Positions 13,055 to 61,116 of a stretch of DNA of 64,000 nucleotides are shown piece after piece; position 1 is the stretch's first letter, and each line of letters starts with the position of its first letter. Both the position numbers and the translations under genes were made by a program. The stretch comes from Sulfuricella denitrificans skB26 (lineage in GTDB: Bacteria > Pseudomonadota > Gammaproteobacteria > Burkholderiales > Sulfuricellaceae). Below the pieces are notes generated by a model. The model saw nothing but the letters and a program-made list of their open reading frames with translations, ran no database searches and was not told the origin of the DNA. Location of the stretch: assembly GCF_000297055.2 (NCBI RefSeq), contig NC_022357.1, forward strand, positions 372,001 to 436,000, written 5' to 3'.

Positions 13055-14818
<1,764 letters not shown>

Positions 14819-18197: not shown

Positions 18198-19373
18198 ATG
18201 AGCAAGCTGACTGTGATGCCTTTTTTTCTCCTGCTGATGTTTTTGCAAGGCTGTGCTTCCATACCACTGCGCGGAACCGGCGACCTTGGTGTGGTGATCG
18301 AGCGTGCCGTGGGCAGTATACAGGTGGTGGAAACCACTGGCCGTACTCGGCTGGGGAAAATTGACGGCCTGGGCGACCTGTCCCACGCCTCGGTCAATTA
18401 TTCACGCGACGAGCGCTATGCTTATATTTTTGGCCGCGATGGCGGCCTGACCAAGGTTGATTTGCTCGAAATGCGCATCGTCAAGCGTGTGATGCAGTCA
18501 GGCAACAGCATCGGCGGTGCTATTTCTCAGGACGGCAAGCTGGTTGCGGTGGCCAACTACACCCCCGGTGGCGTGAAGGTGTTCGATGCAGTTACACTCG
18601 AACTGGTGGCCAATATCCCAGCGCTGGATGATAACGGCAAGTCGTCCAAGGTGATTGGGCTGGTGGATGCGCCAGGCAACCGTTTTGTGTTCAGCCTGTT
18701 CGAAGCCGGTGAAATCTGGCTGGCCGACCTGCGTGTGCCGACCAAACCCGCGTTGACCAAATTCAAAAATGTCGGCAAGGAACCTTATGACGCGATGATT
18801 ACCGCCGATGGTCGCTATTATCTGGCCGGGCTGTTTGGCGAGGATGGGTTGGCGCTGCTGGATTTATGGGATCTGAAGGCAGGTGTGAAGCGGGTGCTGG
18901 ACGGCTACGGCAAGGGTGAGCAGAAGCTGCCGGTGTACAAGATGCCGCATTTGGAGGGCTGGGCGGCGACCGGGAACGAATTGTTGGTGCCGGCAGTGGG
19001 GCGGCACGAGGTGCTGGTCATCGATCAGGGTAGCTGGAAAGAAGTGGGCCGTATTTCTGTTCATGGACAGCCAGTGTTCGTGGTGGCTCGGCCTGACAAT
19101 CGACAGGTATGGGTAAATTATGCATTTCCTCACAATGAGGTGGTCCAGGTGATTGACGTGCCAAGCCGCACTATAGTGAAAACGTTGCAGCCCGGGAAAG
19201 GGGTGCTGCACATGGAGTTCACGCCCAGAGGAGAACAGATATGGATTTCGGTGCGCGACGAAGACCGGGTGGAAATTTACGACACTGAAACGTTCGAAAA
19301 GGTGAGCGAATTGCCTGTGGATAAGCCTAGCGGCATTTTCTTTACGCCACGAGCTCACCGGACAGGATTGTGA
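18198..19373 (+). CDS. nirF: NirF, heme d1 biosynthesis lipoprotein
   Basis: NirF is a beta-propeller protein related to the d1 domain of NirS and needed for heme d1 synthesis. The 391-residue precursor has a lipoprotein signal with lipobox LQGC near residue 19, so it is probably anchored to a membrane facing the periplasm. Propeller blocks similar to NirS and NirN are visible (YAYIFGRDGGLTKVDLL, HMEFTPRGEQIWISVRDED, KPSGIFFTPR). Confidence 0.92.
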   Translation: MSKLTVMPFFLLLMFLQGCASIPLRGTGDLGVVIERAVGSIQVVETTGRTRLGKIDGLGDLSHASVNYSRDERYAYIFGRDGGLTKVDLLEMRIVKRVMQSGNSIGGAISQDGKLVAVANYTPGGVKVFDAVTLELVANIPALDDNGKSSKVIGLVDAPGNRFVFSLFEAGEIWLADLRVPTKPALTKFKNVGKEPYDAMITADGRYYLAGLFGEDGLALLDLWDLKAGVKRVLDGYGKGEQKLPVYKMPHLEGWAATGNELLVPAVGRHEVLVIDQGSWKEVGRISVHGQPVFVVARPDNRQVWVNYAFPHNEVVQVIDVPSRTIVKTLQPGKGVLHMEFTPRGEQIWISVRDEDRVEIYDTETFEKVSELPVDKPSGIFFTPRAHRTGL

Positions 19374-22619: not shown

Positions 22620-24123
22620 GGCCCCGATTTACCGCTTCGCGGTTAAATGTTTTGTTTTCTTATCGATATTGATGCCGTTGGCAGCCCATGCTGCGCCCGA
22701 CGTGCAGAAAATTTATGGTGAGCATTGTGTTTCCTGTCACGGCAGTGATCGGTTGGGGGGAATCGGACCGGCATTGCTGCCGGAAAACCTGGCGCGACTG
22801 CGCCGCCCGGAGGCTTTTAAAACCATCGCTGAGGGACGCAATGCTTCGCAGATGCTGGGTTTTTCCGACAAACTTTCCAAGGACGAAATTCAGGTGTTGG
22901 TGGATTTTATCTACCAGCCGTTAGCCAAGGCGCCGGTGTGGGGTGCAGACGAGATCATCACCTCGCACCTCCAGCATGTACCCTCTGGGAGTCTGCCGGG
23001 AAAGCCAGTGTTTGAGGCAGACCCGTTAAATTTGTTCGTTGTGGTGGAAGTGGGCGACCACCATGCAACCATCCTGGATGGGGATAAATTTGAGCCGATC
23101 TATCGTTTTCAGACCCGCTTTGCCTTACATGGCGGTCCGAAGTTCAGCCCGGATGGGCGCTTCGTCTACTTTGCCTCGCGTGATGGCTGGATCAGCAAGT
23201 TCGACATCTACAATCTGAAAATGGTGGCGGAAGTGCGCGCTGGTATCAACACCCGCAACCTCGCCGTATCCGGCGACGGCAAGACGGTACTGGTGGGTAA
23301 CTACCTGCCGCATTCCCTGGTGTTGCTGGATGCGGAGGATTTGACGCTGATCAAGGTGATTCCCGCCCAGGATAAAAATGGCATAAGTTCGCGCATTTCC
23401 GCGGTGTACCAGGCCGAGCCGCGAGGCAGCTTTGTTGCCGCACTCAAGGATGTCAAAGAAGTATGGGAAATCTCCTATACGTCCAAAGATTTTCCGATAC
23501 GCCGCATTCAGGTGGAAGATTATCTTGATGATTTCTTTTTCGACCAGTCCTATCGACACTTGATTGGCGCGACGCGTGGTGGGCAGAAAGGACAAGTGAT
23601 CGATCTTGACTCTGGCCGGAAGGTAGCGGAGATTGATCTGCCTGGCATGCCGCACCTTGGATCAGGCATCACCTGGGAATATCAGGGCAGGCCTGTGATG
23701 GCCACGCCCAACCTGAAAGAGCCAGTGGTAAGTGTGATCGACATGAATACCTGGCAGACCGTGAAGCAGATCAAGACGCTGGGGCCGGGCTTCTTCATGC
23801 GTAGCCACGAAAATACACCCTACGCTTGGACCGACGGTTTTAACAGTAGCAATCCTGCGAGCCGAGATGCCATGCACATCATCGATAAGAACACTCTGGA
23901 AGTGGTTCGGATTCTTCGCCCGGCACCCGGCAAAACTGCAGCACACGTCGAGTTCACGCGGGATGGCAAATATGCATTAGTGAGCATATGGGAAAACGAT
24001 GGGGCACTGGTGATCTACGATGCAGCCACCCTCAAGGAGATCAAGCGGTTGCCGATGAACAAGCCTTCCGGCAAATATAACGTCTACAACAAGATCACCC
24101 GCTCGGAGGGGACCAGTCATTAG
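22612..24123 (+). CDS. nirN: NirN, dihydro-heme d1 dehydrogenase
   Basis: NirN is a periplasmic NirS paralogue that carries out the last step of heme d1 synthesis and hands the cofactor to NirS. The 503-residue precursor has a signal peptide (ending AHA), a heme c motif CVSCH near residue 39 and a d1-type propeller (RFVYFASRDGWISKFDIYNL, AHVEFTRDGKYALVSIWENDG). It overlaps nirJ by eight bases. Its stop codon directly abuts the stop of the regulator gene on the other strand. nirE is absent here; uroporphyrinogen methylation must be encoded elsewhere. Confidence 0.93.
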   Translation: MNKAPIYRFAVKCFVFLSILMPLAAHAAPDVQKIYGEHCVSCHGSDRLGGIGPALLPENLARLRRPEAFKTIAEGRNASQMLGFSDKLSKDEIQVLVDFIYQPLAKAPVWGADEIITSHLQHVPSGSLPGKPVFEADPLNLFVVVEVGDHHATILDGDKFEPIYRFQTRFALHGGPKFSPDGRFVYFASRDGWISKFDIYNLKMVAEVRAGINTRNLAVSGDGKTVLVGNYLPHSLVLLDAEDLTLIKVIPAQDKNGISSRISAVYQAEPRGSFVAALKDVKEVWEISYTSKDFPIRRIQVEDYLDDFFFDQSYRHLIGATRGGQKGQVIDLDSGRKVAEIDLPGMPHLGSGITWEYQGRPVMATPNLKEPVVSVIDMNTWQTVKQIKTLGPGFFMRSHENTPYAWTDGFNSSNPASRDAMHIIDKNTLEVVRILRPAPGKTAAHVEFTRDGKYALVSIWENDGALVIYDAATLKEIKRLPMNKPSGKYNVYNKITRSEGTSH

Positions 24124-24822
24124 CTACTGCTGCTGGCCGTAATCACCATAATCGCGTAGTTTTTTCAAATCGAGGATGGCGACATCCTTGCCTTTGACGC
24201 TGATCAATCCAGCGTTGGAAAGTTCGTGCAGGACGCGGGAAAAGGTTTCCGGCGAAATGTTGAGGCGTGATGCGATCACGGTTTTGCTGGCGGTCAGGTT
24301 GATGTGAAGATCATTGCAGCTATCGGCATTGTCACAGTCATGTTGCAACAGGTAGCCGATTATCCGCTGGGTGCAGGAGCGTAAGCTGTAACCTTCAACG
24401 TCGCCGATCAGACTGTGCAGTCTGCTGCTAAGCCCGGCCAGCATCTTGCGGCAGAAGATCGGGTCGCGTTCAATTCCATCGAATACAGCTGTTCTGGAAA
24501 TATGCAGCAGAAGTGAGTCGGCGAGCGCCTGAGCATAGACTGGATAGGGCATACCCATGAACATCACCGCTTCCCCGAAGGTTTTGCCGGGACCAACCAG
24601 GTGCACCACCTTTTCCACGCCCTGCGGCGATGAGAACGCTAGTTTCAACTGGCCGTGAACCACGACGTAAAAGCCGTGTGACGGATCGCCTCGCTGAAAT
24701 ACTATTTCCCCGCGCGTAGCGTGCAATTCCCTGGTGTTTTTCGCGATCCGGTCGATTTCTTCCGGTTCCATTTGCTTGAACAGGGGGAGATTGGCCAGGA
24801 TTGCATGAACCTTGGTGCTCAA
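24124..24822 (-). CDS. dnr: Crp/Fnr-family regulator, DNR type
   Basis: Cytoplasmic activator of 232 residues: cyclic-nucleotide-like sensor domain (about 20-130), dimer helix and a C-terminal winged helix (about 165-225). The recognition helix contains SPETFSRVL, whose E-x2-SR pattern is the one FNR uses to read TTGAT half-sites. No N-terminal cysteine cluster for an oxygen-labile Fe-S cluster is present, so it fits the NO-sensing DNR class rather than FNR. It lies between nir and nap genes whose promoters carry matching boxes. Confidence 0.82.
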   Translation of the reverse strand: MSTKVHAILANLPLFKQMEPEEIDRIAKNTRELHATRGEIVFQRGDPSHGFYVVVHGQLKLAFSSPQGVEKVVHLVGPGKTFGEAVMFMGMPYPVYAQALADSLLLHISRTAVFDGIERDPIFCRKMLAGLSSRLHSLIGDVEGYSLRSCTQRIIGYLLQHDCDNADSCNDLHINLTASKTVIASRLNISPETFSRVLHELSNAGLISVKGKDVAILDLKKLRDYGDYGQQQ

Positions 24823-40269: not shown

Positions 40270-41781
40270 ATGCGCACCGACTACCTGGAAAAAATACTCA
40301 CTGCCCGCGTTTATGACGTGGCTATCGAAAGTCCGCTGGAGCACGCGCCGAATCTGTCCCGCCGCATCCAGAATAGGGTCTTGCTCAAGCGCGAGGACTT
40401 GCAGCCGGTGTTCTCGTTCAAGCTGCGCGGCGCCTACAACAAGATGGTGCAGCTGCCTGCCGCAACGCTCAAGCGCGGGGTGATTGCCGCTTCCGCCGGC
40501 AATCATGCCCAGGGCGTGGCGCTTTCTGCTCAGCGCCTGAAGTGCGACGCCACCATCGTGATGCCCGCCACCACCCCGCAGATCAAGGTTGAAGCGGTGC
40601 GGAGTCGCGGTGCCCAGGTAGTGCTGCACGGCGACTCCTACAGCGACGCCTATGTCTATGCCATGGCCCTGGCGAAGGAACGCAAGTTGGCTTTCGTTCA
40701 TCCCTACGATGATCCAGAGGTGATCGCCGGGCAGGGCACCATCGGAATGGAAATTCTGCGCCAGCATTCGGACCCGATTCACGCCATCTTCGTGCCGGTG
40801 GGCGGGGGTGGCCTGATCGCCGGCATTGCCGCTTACGTGAAGCGCCTCAAGCCGGAAATCAAAATCATCGGCGTCGAGCCAGTGGACGCCGACGCCATGT
40901 ACCGTTCGCTGAAAAAGAAAGAGCGGGTGACGCTGGCGCAGGTCGGCATTTTTGCCGACGGCGTGGCGGTCAAGCAGGTGGGGGAAGAAACCTTCCGCCT
41001 CTGCCGGGAGTTAGTGGACGAAGTCATCCTGGTGGATACCGATGCTATCTGCGCCGCGATCAAGGACGTGTTCGAGGATACACGCTCCATCCTCGAACCT
41101 GCTGGGGCGCTTTCCATCGCCGGCGCCAAGCTGTACGCCACGCGCGAAAAACTGAAGAACGAGACGCTGGTGGCGATTGCCTCCGGTGCCAACATGAACT
41201 TCGATCGCTTGCGGCATGTTGCCGAGCGCGCCGAACTGGGCGAGCAGCGCGAAGCCATACTGTCCGTCACCATTCCGGAAAAACCGGGCAGCTTCAAGGC
41301 ATTCTGCGCACTGCTGGGGACGCGCAACATCACCGAATTCAATTACCGCTATTCCGATTCCAGCGCGGCTCATGTGTTCGTCGGGGTGCAGGCGCAAAAT
41401 CGCGGCGAAACCGAGAAGCTGCTGACGCTGCTGGAACGCAAGGGGCTCCAGCCGGTGGACATGAGCGACAACGAGATGGCCAAGCTGCATGTCCGGCACA
41501 TGGTGGGCGGCCATGCGCCCCAGGCGAAAAACGAGATTCTCTATCGCTTCGAGTTTCCCGAGCGGCCCGGCGCGCTGATGAAATTCCTCGACAGCGTTGG
41601 CCAGAGCTGGAACATCAGCCTGTTCCACTATCGCAACCACGGCGCAGACTACGGGCGAGTGCTGGTGGGGGTGCAGGTGCCGCCGCAGGAAAAGCCCGCC
41701 TTCAAGGCCTTTCTGAAGCGTCTGGGCTATCCCTATGTGGACGAGAGCAAGAACCCGGCCTACAAATTATTTCTCGGCTGA
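40270..41781 (+). CDS. ilvA: Threonine ammonia-lyase (biosynthetic)
   Basis: PLP enzyme deaminating threonine to 2-oxobutyrate, the first step to isoleucine. The 503-residue size and two C-terminal ACT-like regulatory repeats (about 325-400 and 420-500: VTIPEKPGSFKAFCALLG, FEFPERPGALMKFLDSVG) mark the allosteric biosynthetic form. The PLP lysine is in FSFKLRGAYNK, the phosphate loop is VGGGGLIAG. ATG 40270 is preferred over the TTG at 40261. The 210 bases upstream are AT-rich and hold no gene. Confidence 0.95.
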   Translation: MRTDYLEKILTARVYDVAIESPLEHAPNLSRRIQNRVLLKREDLQPVFSFKLRGAYNKMVQLPAATLKRGVIAASAGNHAQGVALSAQRLKCDATIVMPATTPQIKVEAVRSRGAQVVLHGDSYSDAYVYAMALAKERKLAFVHPYDDPEVIAGQGTIGMEILRQHSDPIHAIFVPVGGGGLIAGIAAYVKRLKPEIKIIGVEPVDADAMYRSLKKKERVTLAQVGIFADGVAVKQVGEETFRLCRELVDEVILVDTDAICAAIKDVFEDTRSILEPAGALSIAGAKLYATREKLKNETLVAIASGANMNFDRLRHVAERAELGEQREAILSVTIPEKPGSFKAFCALLGTRNITEFNYRYSDSSAAHVFVGVQAQNRGETEKLLTLLERKGLQPVDMSDNEMAKLHVRHMVGGHAPQAKNEILYRFEFPERPGALMKFLDSVGQSWNISLFHYRNHGADYGRVLVGVQVPPQEKPAFKAFLKRLGYPYVDESKNPAYKLFLG

Positions 41782-41782
41782 T

Positions 41783-41831
41783 TTGATTTAAATCATGGAA
41801 GGGCCGCGGCGCCATCGTTATGATGCCGGAT
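41783..41831 (+). promoter_or_regulatory. FNR/DNR-type class II promoter for the secreted protein gene
   Basis: TTGAT-TTAA-ATCAT (41783-41796) matches the FNR/DNR consensus at 9 of 10 half-site positions. A TATGAT hexamer (41819-41824, 5 of 6 to TATAAT) lies exactly where a box centred at -41.5 would put the -10. The predicted start is near 41831, 16 bases before the ATG. Confidence 0.65.
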
Positions 41832-41846
41832 TTTTGAGGCGGTAAT

Positions 41847-42611
41847 ATGCAACGAGTACAGAGTTTGATTCTGGCGGCGCTGTTTGCGTGCCTGTCCGGC
41901 CATGCCGCCGCTTCTTTTGATAGCGCGGCCCTGACTCTTCCTGCCGGCTATGTCGGGGATGACATCAAAAAGTGGTATGGAGAAATTTCCGCCTCCGCAC
42001 CCGTCACCGCGAACATCAAGGATGAAGTGTTCGCCTTTGCAGTCGATCTCGATGCCGGTCCGAATTTTTCCCAGAAATACAATGCCGCCAGCGGCAAACT
42101 GGAACTGCACTACAACATGGTGTTCAACCAGATCGCCGAAGGCTGGAGCTGGGATGAACTGACCAACCCGGATCAGCACGATTATTACCACTTCAAATTC
42201 CTGCCCCTCGGTTTTGAAACCGCATCCAAACGCGCGCCCAAGGTGGTCGAGCTCTACCCCGGCAAAACGCTGGAGGTGAAGAACCTGTGGCGCTACGAAT
42301 ATTTCTTCGCCTTCGAGAATCTCTACGATTTTTACGAGCGCAAGGTGGACGATGATGCCGGTTTCGATGCGGCAGTTGTGATAAAAGCCGAGGAAGCCGG
42401 GTTGCTGCTGGAAGGCAAGCGCATACGCATGCTGGCGTTGTGTCGGCTCAAACCGCCTTACCATACTGAAAGCAACACCTTCTGGAAGGCTACCTTCGCA
42501 GAGCCGGTGGATTACACTTTGAGAAAGCGCTATCTGGTGGGGGAACTGCTCGAAGTGTGGTTTTACGATAGTGCCAGCGGCAAGGTGCTGACCAAGGTTC
42601 GGCAGCGCTGA
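41847..42611 (+). CDS. Secreted protein of unknown function under an FNR-type promoter
   Basis: 254 residues with a Sec signal (LILAALFACLSGHAAA, cleavage near residue 23). The mature part is rich in aromatic and acidic residues (YHFKFLPLGFE, NLWRYEYFFAFENLYDFYERKVDDD) and contains only one cysteine, so neither heme c motifs nor disulfides are expected. I do not recognise the family. It lies after ilvA and ends one base from the convergent aldehyde dehydrogenase. The promoter architecture suggests it is made without oxygen. Confidence 0.8.
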   Translation: MQRVQSLILAALFACLSGHAAASFDSAALTLPAGYVGDDIKKWYGEISASAPVTANIKDEVFAFAVDLDAGPNFSQKYNAASGKLELHYNMVFNQIAEGWSWDELTNPDQHDYYHFKFLPLGFETASKRAPKVVELYPGKTLEVKNLWRYEYFFAFENLYDFYERKVDDDAGFDAAVVIKAEEAGLLLEGKRIRMLALCRLKPPYHTESNTFWKATFAEPVDYTLRKRYLVGELLEVWFYDSASGKVLTKVRQR

Positions 42612-59914: not shown

Positions 59915-61116
59915 TCCGTTCCGCCGACAGCATGATCCTCGCTCTGCGCGCCATCACCGCGCACCGATTGCGCAGCTTTCTGACGGTGCTTGGCATCGCT
60001 GTCGGGGTCGCGGCGGTGATCTTGCTGACCTCGATCGGCGAGGGCGTTCACCGCTTCGTGCTGGCCGAGTTCACTCAGTTCGGCACCAACGTTATCTCGA
60101 TCACCCCCGGCAAGGTCAAGACTGCGGGCGCACCGCCGACGGGCATTCCCACCTCGGTGCGCCCGCTGACGCTGGAGGATGCGCGCGCGGCTTCGCATCT
60201 GCCCAATGTCGCGGCAATGACGCCTATCGTGTGGGGCAATTCCGAAGTAGGCGGCAATGGACGCCTGCGCCGCACCACGGTGTACGGCGTCGGGCCAAAC
60301 ATGCTCAAGGCCTTCCGCATCAAGATCAGGAGCGGCCAGTTTCTGCCGCAGGAGGATACTGACAGCGCCCGCGCTTTTGTGGTGCTTGGCGCCAAACTCA
60401 AGAAGGAGCTTTTCGGCGACACCAATCCGCTCGGCGCGCGGGTGCGCGTCGGCGGCATGCAATTCCGCGTCATCGGCGTGCTGGAAGCCAAGGGGCAGAT
60501 ACTCGGCATCGACATGGACGACACCGCCTACATCCCGGCGGCGCGCGCGCTGGAGCTGTACAACCGCGACGGCTTGATGGAAATCAACGTGACCTACGCC
60601 GAAGGTGTGCCGGCAAGGGAGGTGACCGACGCGCTTAAAACGCTGCTCAAAGCGCGCCACGGACGCGAGGATTTCACCCTGACCACACAGGAAGACATGC
60701 TGCGCACTCTGTCGAATATCCTCGATATCCTGACTATGGCGGTCGGTGCCCTGGGGGGTATTTCGCTGCTGGTCGGCGGCGTCGGTATCGTCACTATCAT
60801 GACTATCGCCGTCACCGAGCGCACCGGCGAAATCGGCTTGCTGGTGGCTCTCGGCGCGCCGCGCCGCACCATTCTCGGCCTGTTTCTTGGCGAGGCGGTA
60901 GCCTTGTCCACTGTCGGCGGCGTGCTGGGACTGGCGCTCGGCATCGGCATCGCGCAACTGTTGCACCTCTTCGTCCCCGCCCTGCCGGTGCACACCCCCA
61001 TCACCTTCGTGCTGCTCGCCGAAGCCGTCGCCATCGTCATCGGTCTCGTCGCCGGCGTGCTCCCTGCCAGCCGCGCATCGCGGCTGAACCCGGTGGAAGC
61101 GCTGCGGGAGGAATAG
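59911..61116 (+). CDS. MacB-type ABC permease, second copy
   Basis: 401 residues with the same layout as the preceding permease (N-terminal LRSFLTVLGIAVGVAAVILL, periplasmic domain, C-terminal VTERTGEIGLLVALGAPRRTI). The pair probably forms a heterodimer with the single ATPase. The frame is open from 59800, but ATG 59911 is coupled to the previous stop and gives the correct N-terminus. Confidence 0.9.
   Translation: MIRSADSMILALRAITAHRLRSFLTVLGIAVGVAAVILLTSIGEGVHRFVLAEFTQFGTNVISITPGKVKTAGAPPTGIPTSVRPLTLEDARAASHLPNVAAMTPIVWGNSEVGGNGRLRRTTVYGVGPNMLKAFRIKIRSGQFLPQEDTDSARAFVVLGAKLKKELFGDTNPLGARVRVGGMQFRVIGVLEAKGQILGIDMDDTAYIPAARALELYNRDGLMEINVTYAEGVPAREVTDALKTLLKARHGREDFTLTTQEDMLRTLSNILDILTMAVGALGGISLLVGGVGIVTIMTIAVTERTGEIGLLVALGAPRRTILGLFLGEAVALSTVGGVLGLALGIGIAQLLHLFVPALPVHTPITFVLLAEAVAIVIGLVAGVLPASRASRLNPVEALREE

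Follow-up and report, generated by a model that had tools for sequence, protein, structure and literature searches.

The locus analyzed here raises the question of why a gene for an exported protein of no described family should lie behind what looks like a promoter of the FNR/DNR type, and of what such a protein may do. It is found in a window of 64,000 nucleotides (the whole stretch of DNA that was analyzed, C1:372001-436000) of the genome of Sulfuricella denitrificans skB26 (3.2 Mb in two contigs; hereafter the host, G000). A sequence-only reading of this window had claimed a 9-of-10 FNR-type box, a class II TATGAT −10 hexamer and a distance of 16 bases to the ATG, and we found all of these as placed. 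It had also called the product an unrecognised exported protein of 254 residues, and this too was borne out by an open reading frame at 41847-42611 whose N-terminus is signal-like by eye and whose translation belongs to no known family. From the comparisons described below, we think it probable, though well short of assured, that the gene encodes an FNR/DNR-activated, periplasmic (Sec-exported) accessory of denitrifying, low-oxygen respiration. The molecular function as a respiratory accessory is something that we infer only, and the same applies to activation by FNR/DNR and to the periplasmic location.

Table 1 Features of the window (positions are those of the window unless marked as genome).
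Feature	Position	Strand	Basis
FNR/DNR-type box TTGATTTAAATCAT	41783..41796	+	read directly; kept in Sulfuricella orthologues and G021
−10 hexamer TATGAT, class II position	41819..41824	+	read directly; peak of the TATAAT match over 20 promoters
Predicted +1	41831..41831	+	predicted from box and −10 geometry alone
GAGG, ribosome-binding-site-like	41836..41839	+	direct reading
Exported 254-residue protein, undescribed family	41847..42611	+	open reading frame and family searches
Signal-peptide-like N-terminus, residues 1-22	41847..41912	+	by eye: n-region, hydrophobic stretch, HAAA motif
Three cytochrome-d1 domains (NirS/NirF/NirN type)	13619-14800, 18273-19349, 23020-24093	+	genome C1:385619-396093
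HTH domain of a DNR-type regulator (ETFSR, without N-terminal Cys cluster)	24148..24369	−	genome C1:396148-396369

Gene and promoter at the locus

The target stands as a single gene, with a threonine-dehydratase-like gene, whose product has 506 residues, upstream and a convergent aldehyde-dehydrogenase-like gene downstream (both names were given by eye). The box TTGATTTAAATCAT starts only two bases past the place where the upstream gene ends (stop codon at 41779-41781), which the sequence-only reading did not remark on. The layout of the box is TTGAT-TTAA-ATCAT, agreeing with TTGATnnnnATCAA at 9 of 10 positions, with its centre at 41789.5 and with T as the outer base of the downstream half-site. 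If transcription starts at 41831, the box is centred at −41.5, positions −12 to −7 fall on 41819-41824, and the ATG at 41847 lies 16 bases past the predicted start. The spacer between the box and the −10 (window 41797-41818) contains a GGCCG element, which is kept in most Sulfuricella orthologues and in G021, a genome of a neighbouring genus.

Sites of this kind are enriched in the window and in the genome. The window contains 10 sites with at most one mismatch from TTGATnnnnATCAA, where 1.73 are expected, and 10 were reached in 0 of 100 shuffles; genome-wide, TTGATNNNNATCAW has 37 matches as against 4 for the reversed control. A perfect TTGATGGAAATCAA at window 60574-60587 falls within a reading frame, and it looks like a coincidental match. 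Elsewhere in the genome (C1:2602719-2602732, L090), a perfect TTGATCTGCATCAA box stands 140 bases before a gene for an exported protein, which by eye resembles the start of a TonB-dependent receptor.

A narrow protein family

Neither the protein nor 24 relatives gave a Pfam match over the curated cut-off (the best was bPH_7, 13.7 bits versus 25). There were no NCBIfam matches for the protein or the 24-member alignment and no matches among PDB sequences for the single protein or a 24-row profile, and no family match in Pfam or NCBIfam indicated homology to a known nir, nap or nos subunit or maturation factor. Pfam hits to bPH_7, DUF6746 and CooC_C were dismissed as lone matches with E of 0.05-0.2, PDB profile hits with E of ~0.5 were dismissed as they were gone with a larger alignment, and strand-rich AlphaFold models of six close sequences were distrusted at mean pLDDT values of 36.9 and 44.4. 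Literature searches, which covered titles and the beginnings of abstracts rather than supplements and locus tags, returned no paper naming the family.

The 24 aligned members share 32 invariant columns, in which aromatic, acidic and Gly/Pro residues predominate, and the motifs of the family include EGWSW, DYY..K.LPL and TFWKA. Across these members no Cys or His and a single Met are invariant, and the CXXCH heme site is absent from the protein and from the alignment. Most relatives keep an N-terminal hydrophobic stretch, although not its sequence. The protein belongs to a real, narrow family. The lack of a heme motif and of any conserved Cys, together with a conserved core of aromatic and acidic residues, makes a role as an electron carrier unlikely, and a support role is likelier.

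The gene was detected in 15 of 22 genomes of the Sulfuricellaceae (f1), one of them (G006) with a contig-end fragment, and in 32 of 249 genomes and 12 of 68 genera of a second family, f20, which is probably the Rhodocyclaceae. The order-wide survey gave 18 of 399 genomes, all within these two families. The class sample gave only the host itself (1/369), and the phylum sample (3/299) gave the host, G040 and G502, the last as a weak match over the C-terminal part; plasmid and viral collections gave no match. Orthologues on five contigs are 73-90% identical. The distant protein of G502 (L103 805-1731, 309 residues, exported, in a genome of another family) aligns over the C-terminal 75 columns (hhalign, E 5e-7, probability 92), and its N-terminal LTITPGFTGDDP resembles LTLPAGYVGDD by eye. 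It falls in no Pfam family, and its likeness to the new family is seen over the C-terminal part; it hints at a possible wider superfamily.

Promoter conservation among relatives

We looked for close relatives that had lost the box and saw none in Sulfuricella, in which the box and the −10 are kept in all six orthologues that have upstream sequence, the hexamer being TATGAT in four and TAGCAT or TAGGAT in two. In G021, where a different gene lies upstream, TTGATTTAGATCAT is found together with TATGAT. In a box-anchored comparison of the Sulfuricella promoters, from which G010 was left out as near-identical to the host, the half-sites have a mean majority of 5.8 of 6, whereas the 60 bases upstream of the box are unalignable (2.93 of 6 versus 2.83 for random columns). 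Since the box is conserved while the flanking sequence is random-like, its conservation is not explained by that of the sequence around it.

Homologues in both families also carry the box. It lies directly upstream in 27 of 44 members, no more than ~250 bases from the start, and heads a putative operon in a further 7, and in 34 of 34 box promoters a −10 hexamer matching at least 3 of 6 bases lies within one base of class II spacing. The count of 44 excludes the fragments in G006 and G1260, and G1264, scanned later, is outside the 44. No box of at least 8/10 was found in the other 10 of the 44 (G016, G018, G013, G568, G1105, G1227, G1141, G1043, G1235 and G1271), among which G016 has by eye a 7/10 site at the expected place and G1235 sits at a contig edge. 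Among the first ten f20 members, eight have direct boxes, and in G627 the box is upstream of a DUF2249 gene preceding the target. When 20 promoters are averaged, agreement with TATAAT is highest at the class II position (a mean of 3.15 of 6 at index 36), as against 2.35 at index 37 and mostly 1-2 at other offsets.

We then have a test set of 20 further f20 members that were unused in defining the pattern of box and −10. A direct box is present in 12 of them, and 10 have a box of at least 9/10 with a correctly placed −10 of at least 3/6; in two more members the box is upstream of a preceding DUF2249 gene. As a control we used 374 other, neighbouring genes on the loci of the first set, of which 7 pass the strong criterion (box at least 9/10, −10 at least 3/6, class II spacing) and 32 the loose one (box at least 8/10, −10 at least 3/6). 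The difference between 10/20 and 7/374 gives a Fisher p of 1e-10 with relatedness ignored, and the control is conservative because some of its hits are heads of the target's own operons. Operon-type arrangements include G1264, where a 9/10 site TTGATGGCGATTAA precedes an SCO1 gene overlapping the target, and g2, in which the target comes after a gene for a diheme cytochrome c; the promoter of that cytochrome gene has TTGTTCCAGATCAA or weaker versions paired with better −10s.

An extension of the motif by GG (ATCATGG) was rejected as not general, with G at position 15 in 23 and at position 16 in 21 of the 34 boxes, and so was a start codon within ATCATGG, which by eye is out of frame or soon followed by a stop in the relatives examined. 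As far as genome comparison can carry such a prediction, the regulatory half of our reading is well supported, close to the limit of what comparative genomics can support.

Box asymmetry and candidate regulators

None of the 34 boxes is a perfect palindrome, though the filter would have passed perfect sites. The outer bases (positions 1 and 14) are T,T in 25, which end in ATCAT, and C,A in 8, which end in TCAA; one box has T,A, beginning with TTGTT and ending with ATCAA, its left half being damaged. In 33 of the 34 promoters the box departs from the palindrome at exactly one of its outer bases. Across the host genome there are 10 perfect sites; ATCAT sites number 17, and many of these fall within reading frames. 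The asymmetry may point to a particular regulator or a heterodimer, or to a lowered affinity. The ATCAT half-site, which the sequence-only reading had called nearer to that of FNR than to the nir/nap GTCAA type, does not set the gene apart from the denitrification genes, since TTGATCTAGATCAT is found upstream of the host's own nosZ. This site lies at genome C1:366801-366814 (L070), 260 bases before the ATG of nosZ, and a second site, TTGATCTAGGTCAA, is found between it and the ATG.

The recognition helix of E. coli FNR is ETISR, and the usual consensus is ETxSR. The host FNR (L095, genome C1:2698230-2698451) has a Cys-rich N-terminus, CKDCGIYGLC, and the helix ETVCR, with C in place of the usual S, a change that may alter the preference for the outer base of the half-site. 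The host also has two DNR-like proteins with ETFSR (L096 and L098) and one more regulator with ETASR, so that cognate regulators for a class II FNR/DNR promoter are present in the FNR L095 and the DNR-type L096 and L098. The DNR-type regulator encoded in the window (24148-24369) is one of several candidate activators in the genome. The sequence of the box appears compatible with FNR or DNR as the activator and does not by itself decide between them. When oxygen is lacking (for FNR) and/or nitric oxide is present (for DNR), a dimer of the FNR/DNR family would bind the box at −41.5, where it would overlap the −35 region and recruit RNA polymerase to the TATGAT −10, as at a class II promoter.

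Co-occurrence with denitrification genes

The gene had been placed outside the nir, nap and nos sets, a claim now weakened, since among the genomes tested it was found only in those with cytochrome-d1 genes. Such genes, called at E below 1e-90, are present in 45 of 45 gene-bearing genomes but in 15 of 25 gene-less ones, two weak matches among the latter being counted as absent and the fragment-only genomes G006 and G1260 being excluded (70 genomes tested). The association has p = 8e-6 by genome and p = 0.01 by genus within f20 (12/12 versus 10/18), relatedness being modelled in neither. Because 15 of the 25 gene-less genomes have d1, the gene is not essential for denitrification. With nosZ the association is weak (34/45, one of them partial, versus 13/25, p = 0.06), and one with narG was rejected, narG being over the cut-off in 8 of 45 gene-bearing and 8 of 25 gene-less genomes.

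The location of the gene in several lineages weakens that claim further. In the window the nir region is ~18 kb from the target. On contigs carrying both genes, with the d1 places that were listed, the gene is 9-25 kb from a d1 gene in G000, G011, G012, G016, G019, G627, G1129, G1235 and G1264 and more than 100 kb away in G040, G532, G656, G1082, G1109, G598, G684 and G1246, a comparison that draft contigs bias towards nearness. The distance from nir in G040, G532, G1082 and G684, which have long contigs, speaks against the denitrification role. It is about 3-14 kb from nos in several lineages and 2.7 kb in G1264, and it sits between nir and nos in G012, G016 and G019.

Taken on these associations, the most economical role would be that of a periplasmic accessory of d1-type denitrification or of its low-oxygen setting. 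The exported protein would support the assembly, protection or partnering of periplasmic respiratory enzymes, with the d1-type nitrite reductase and NO or copper-enzyme surroundings as candidate partners. A bolder form, which we regard as rather unlikely, is a dedicated, hitherto undescribed periplasmic factor for cytochrome-cd1 denitrification, confined to the Sulfuricellaceae and f20. Its asymmetric box would then be recognised by two distinct subunits of the FNR family, or would respond only when the activator is abundant, so that its expression would be timed between the loss of oxygen and the production of NO.

Gene neighbourhoods and alternative explanations

Pfam confirmed NarI, DUF2249 and FeS_assembly_P as neighbours in g22 (G040), COX3 and COX4_pro in g389 (G627, with DUF2249 by eye), NnrS in G1141, and a multiheme cytochrome, cytochrome b561 and a redoxin in G021. 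A 381-residue neighbour in G040, guessed by eye to be NnrS, was unconfirmed by Pfam and was dropped.

In seven other genera of f20 (g343, g396, g561, g565, g572, g576 and g596), hydrogenase, ABC-efflux, uspA, MBL or phaC genes are found close to the gene, mostly as judged by eye, with representatives confirmed by Pfam (NiFeSe_Hases for the NiFe hydrogenase, Usp, Beta-Casp MBL, PhaC_N and ODP). These neighbourhoods form a counterweight to a denitrification role, as they suit a general low-oxygen role equally: the protein could be an envelope or storage-state factor that is not specific to denitrification and belongs to an FNR island together with a hydrogenase, a universal stress protein, an RNA-processing metallo-beta-lactamase and a PHA synthase. 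Upstream FNR sites predicted for phaC genes of Accumulibacter (PMC6446978) fit such a factor as well. However, the members in Sulfuricella, g2, g3, g22, g389 and g608 have neighbourhoods of other types, and a general factor leaves the restriction to d1 genomes unexplained; we give this explanation a modest chance.

A periplasmic helper working with SCO1 in the assembly of copper (CuA/CuZ) or cytochrome c enzymes is suggested by the gene order SCO1 - cytochrome c - target in g2, and by G1264 (L133 7232-10177), in which the gene overlaps one SCO1 gene by 4 bases and is followed by another, both Pfam-confirmed, with nos genes 2.7 kb off. Pfam also places cytochrome c and SCO1 next to the gene in G012, and by eye a CopZ/CopA-like pair is upstream in G568. 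Such a helper seems quite improbable to us: among the 24 aligned members no Cys or His is invariant and only a single Met is, so that the protein is unlikely to bind copper itself, and nosZ was not found in 11 of the 45 gene-bearing genomes. Finally, that the box matches by chance and the gene is expressed constitutively is very hard to credit: a consensus match by itself is weak evidence, with 32 of the 374 neighbouring genes passing the loose criterion, but this box is conserved at a fixed spacing across unrelated flanks and in two families.

Comparison with known systems

The FNR promoters of E. coli serve as examples of class II promoters for comparison, and unlike the class II FNR promoters compared, those studied here have a perfect palindrome in 0 of 34 boxes. 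The gene resembles the nir and nos genes of the host, the former 18 kb off, in having the same type of box, as seen with TTGATCTAGATCAT upstream of nosZ, but its product carries no d1, heme c or copper-site signature.

The preferred reading, an FNR/DNR-activated accessory of denitrifying respiration, can also be set beside the predicted FNR regulons of Accumulibacter (PMC6446978) and of two Rhodocyclaceae metagenome-assembled genomes (PMC8510549), in which sites lie upstream of nir, nos and cbb3 genes. A large share of the predicted targets in the latter study are hypothetical proteins, described as not analysable further, and the texts of the two papers, as far as available, leave the present family unnamed; it may be an unnamed row of their supplements. 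One such hypothetical FNR-type target has now become a defined family: its promoter is conserved, its phylogenetic range is mapped, its co-occurrence with d1 is nested and its neighbours recur. It makes a good candidate for a component of low-oxygen respiration that has so far been overlooked, and may bear on the question of whether a periplasmic helper of denitrification has been missed.

The closest parallel in promoter layout is the fnr1 promoter of Herbaspirillum seropedicae, where the FNR site is centred at −42 (PMC5934665): both have a single box near −41.5/−42 over the −35 region with a −10 at the matching place, and both belong to a betaproteobacterial host with several FNR-family regulators. 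In H. seropedicae the outer bases differ between the targets of Fnr1 and Fnr3, the 3′ A at position 14 mattering for Fnr1 while this position is poorly conserved for Fnr3 (PMC5934665). The conserved one-base asymmetry of the box described here is a natural test case for the division of targets among FNR paralogues.
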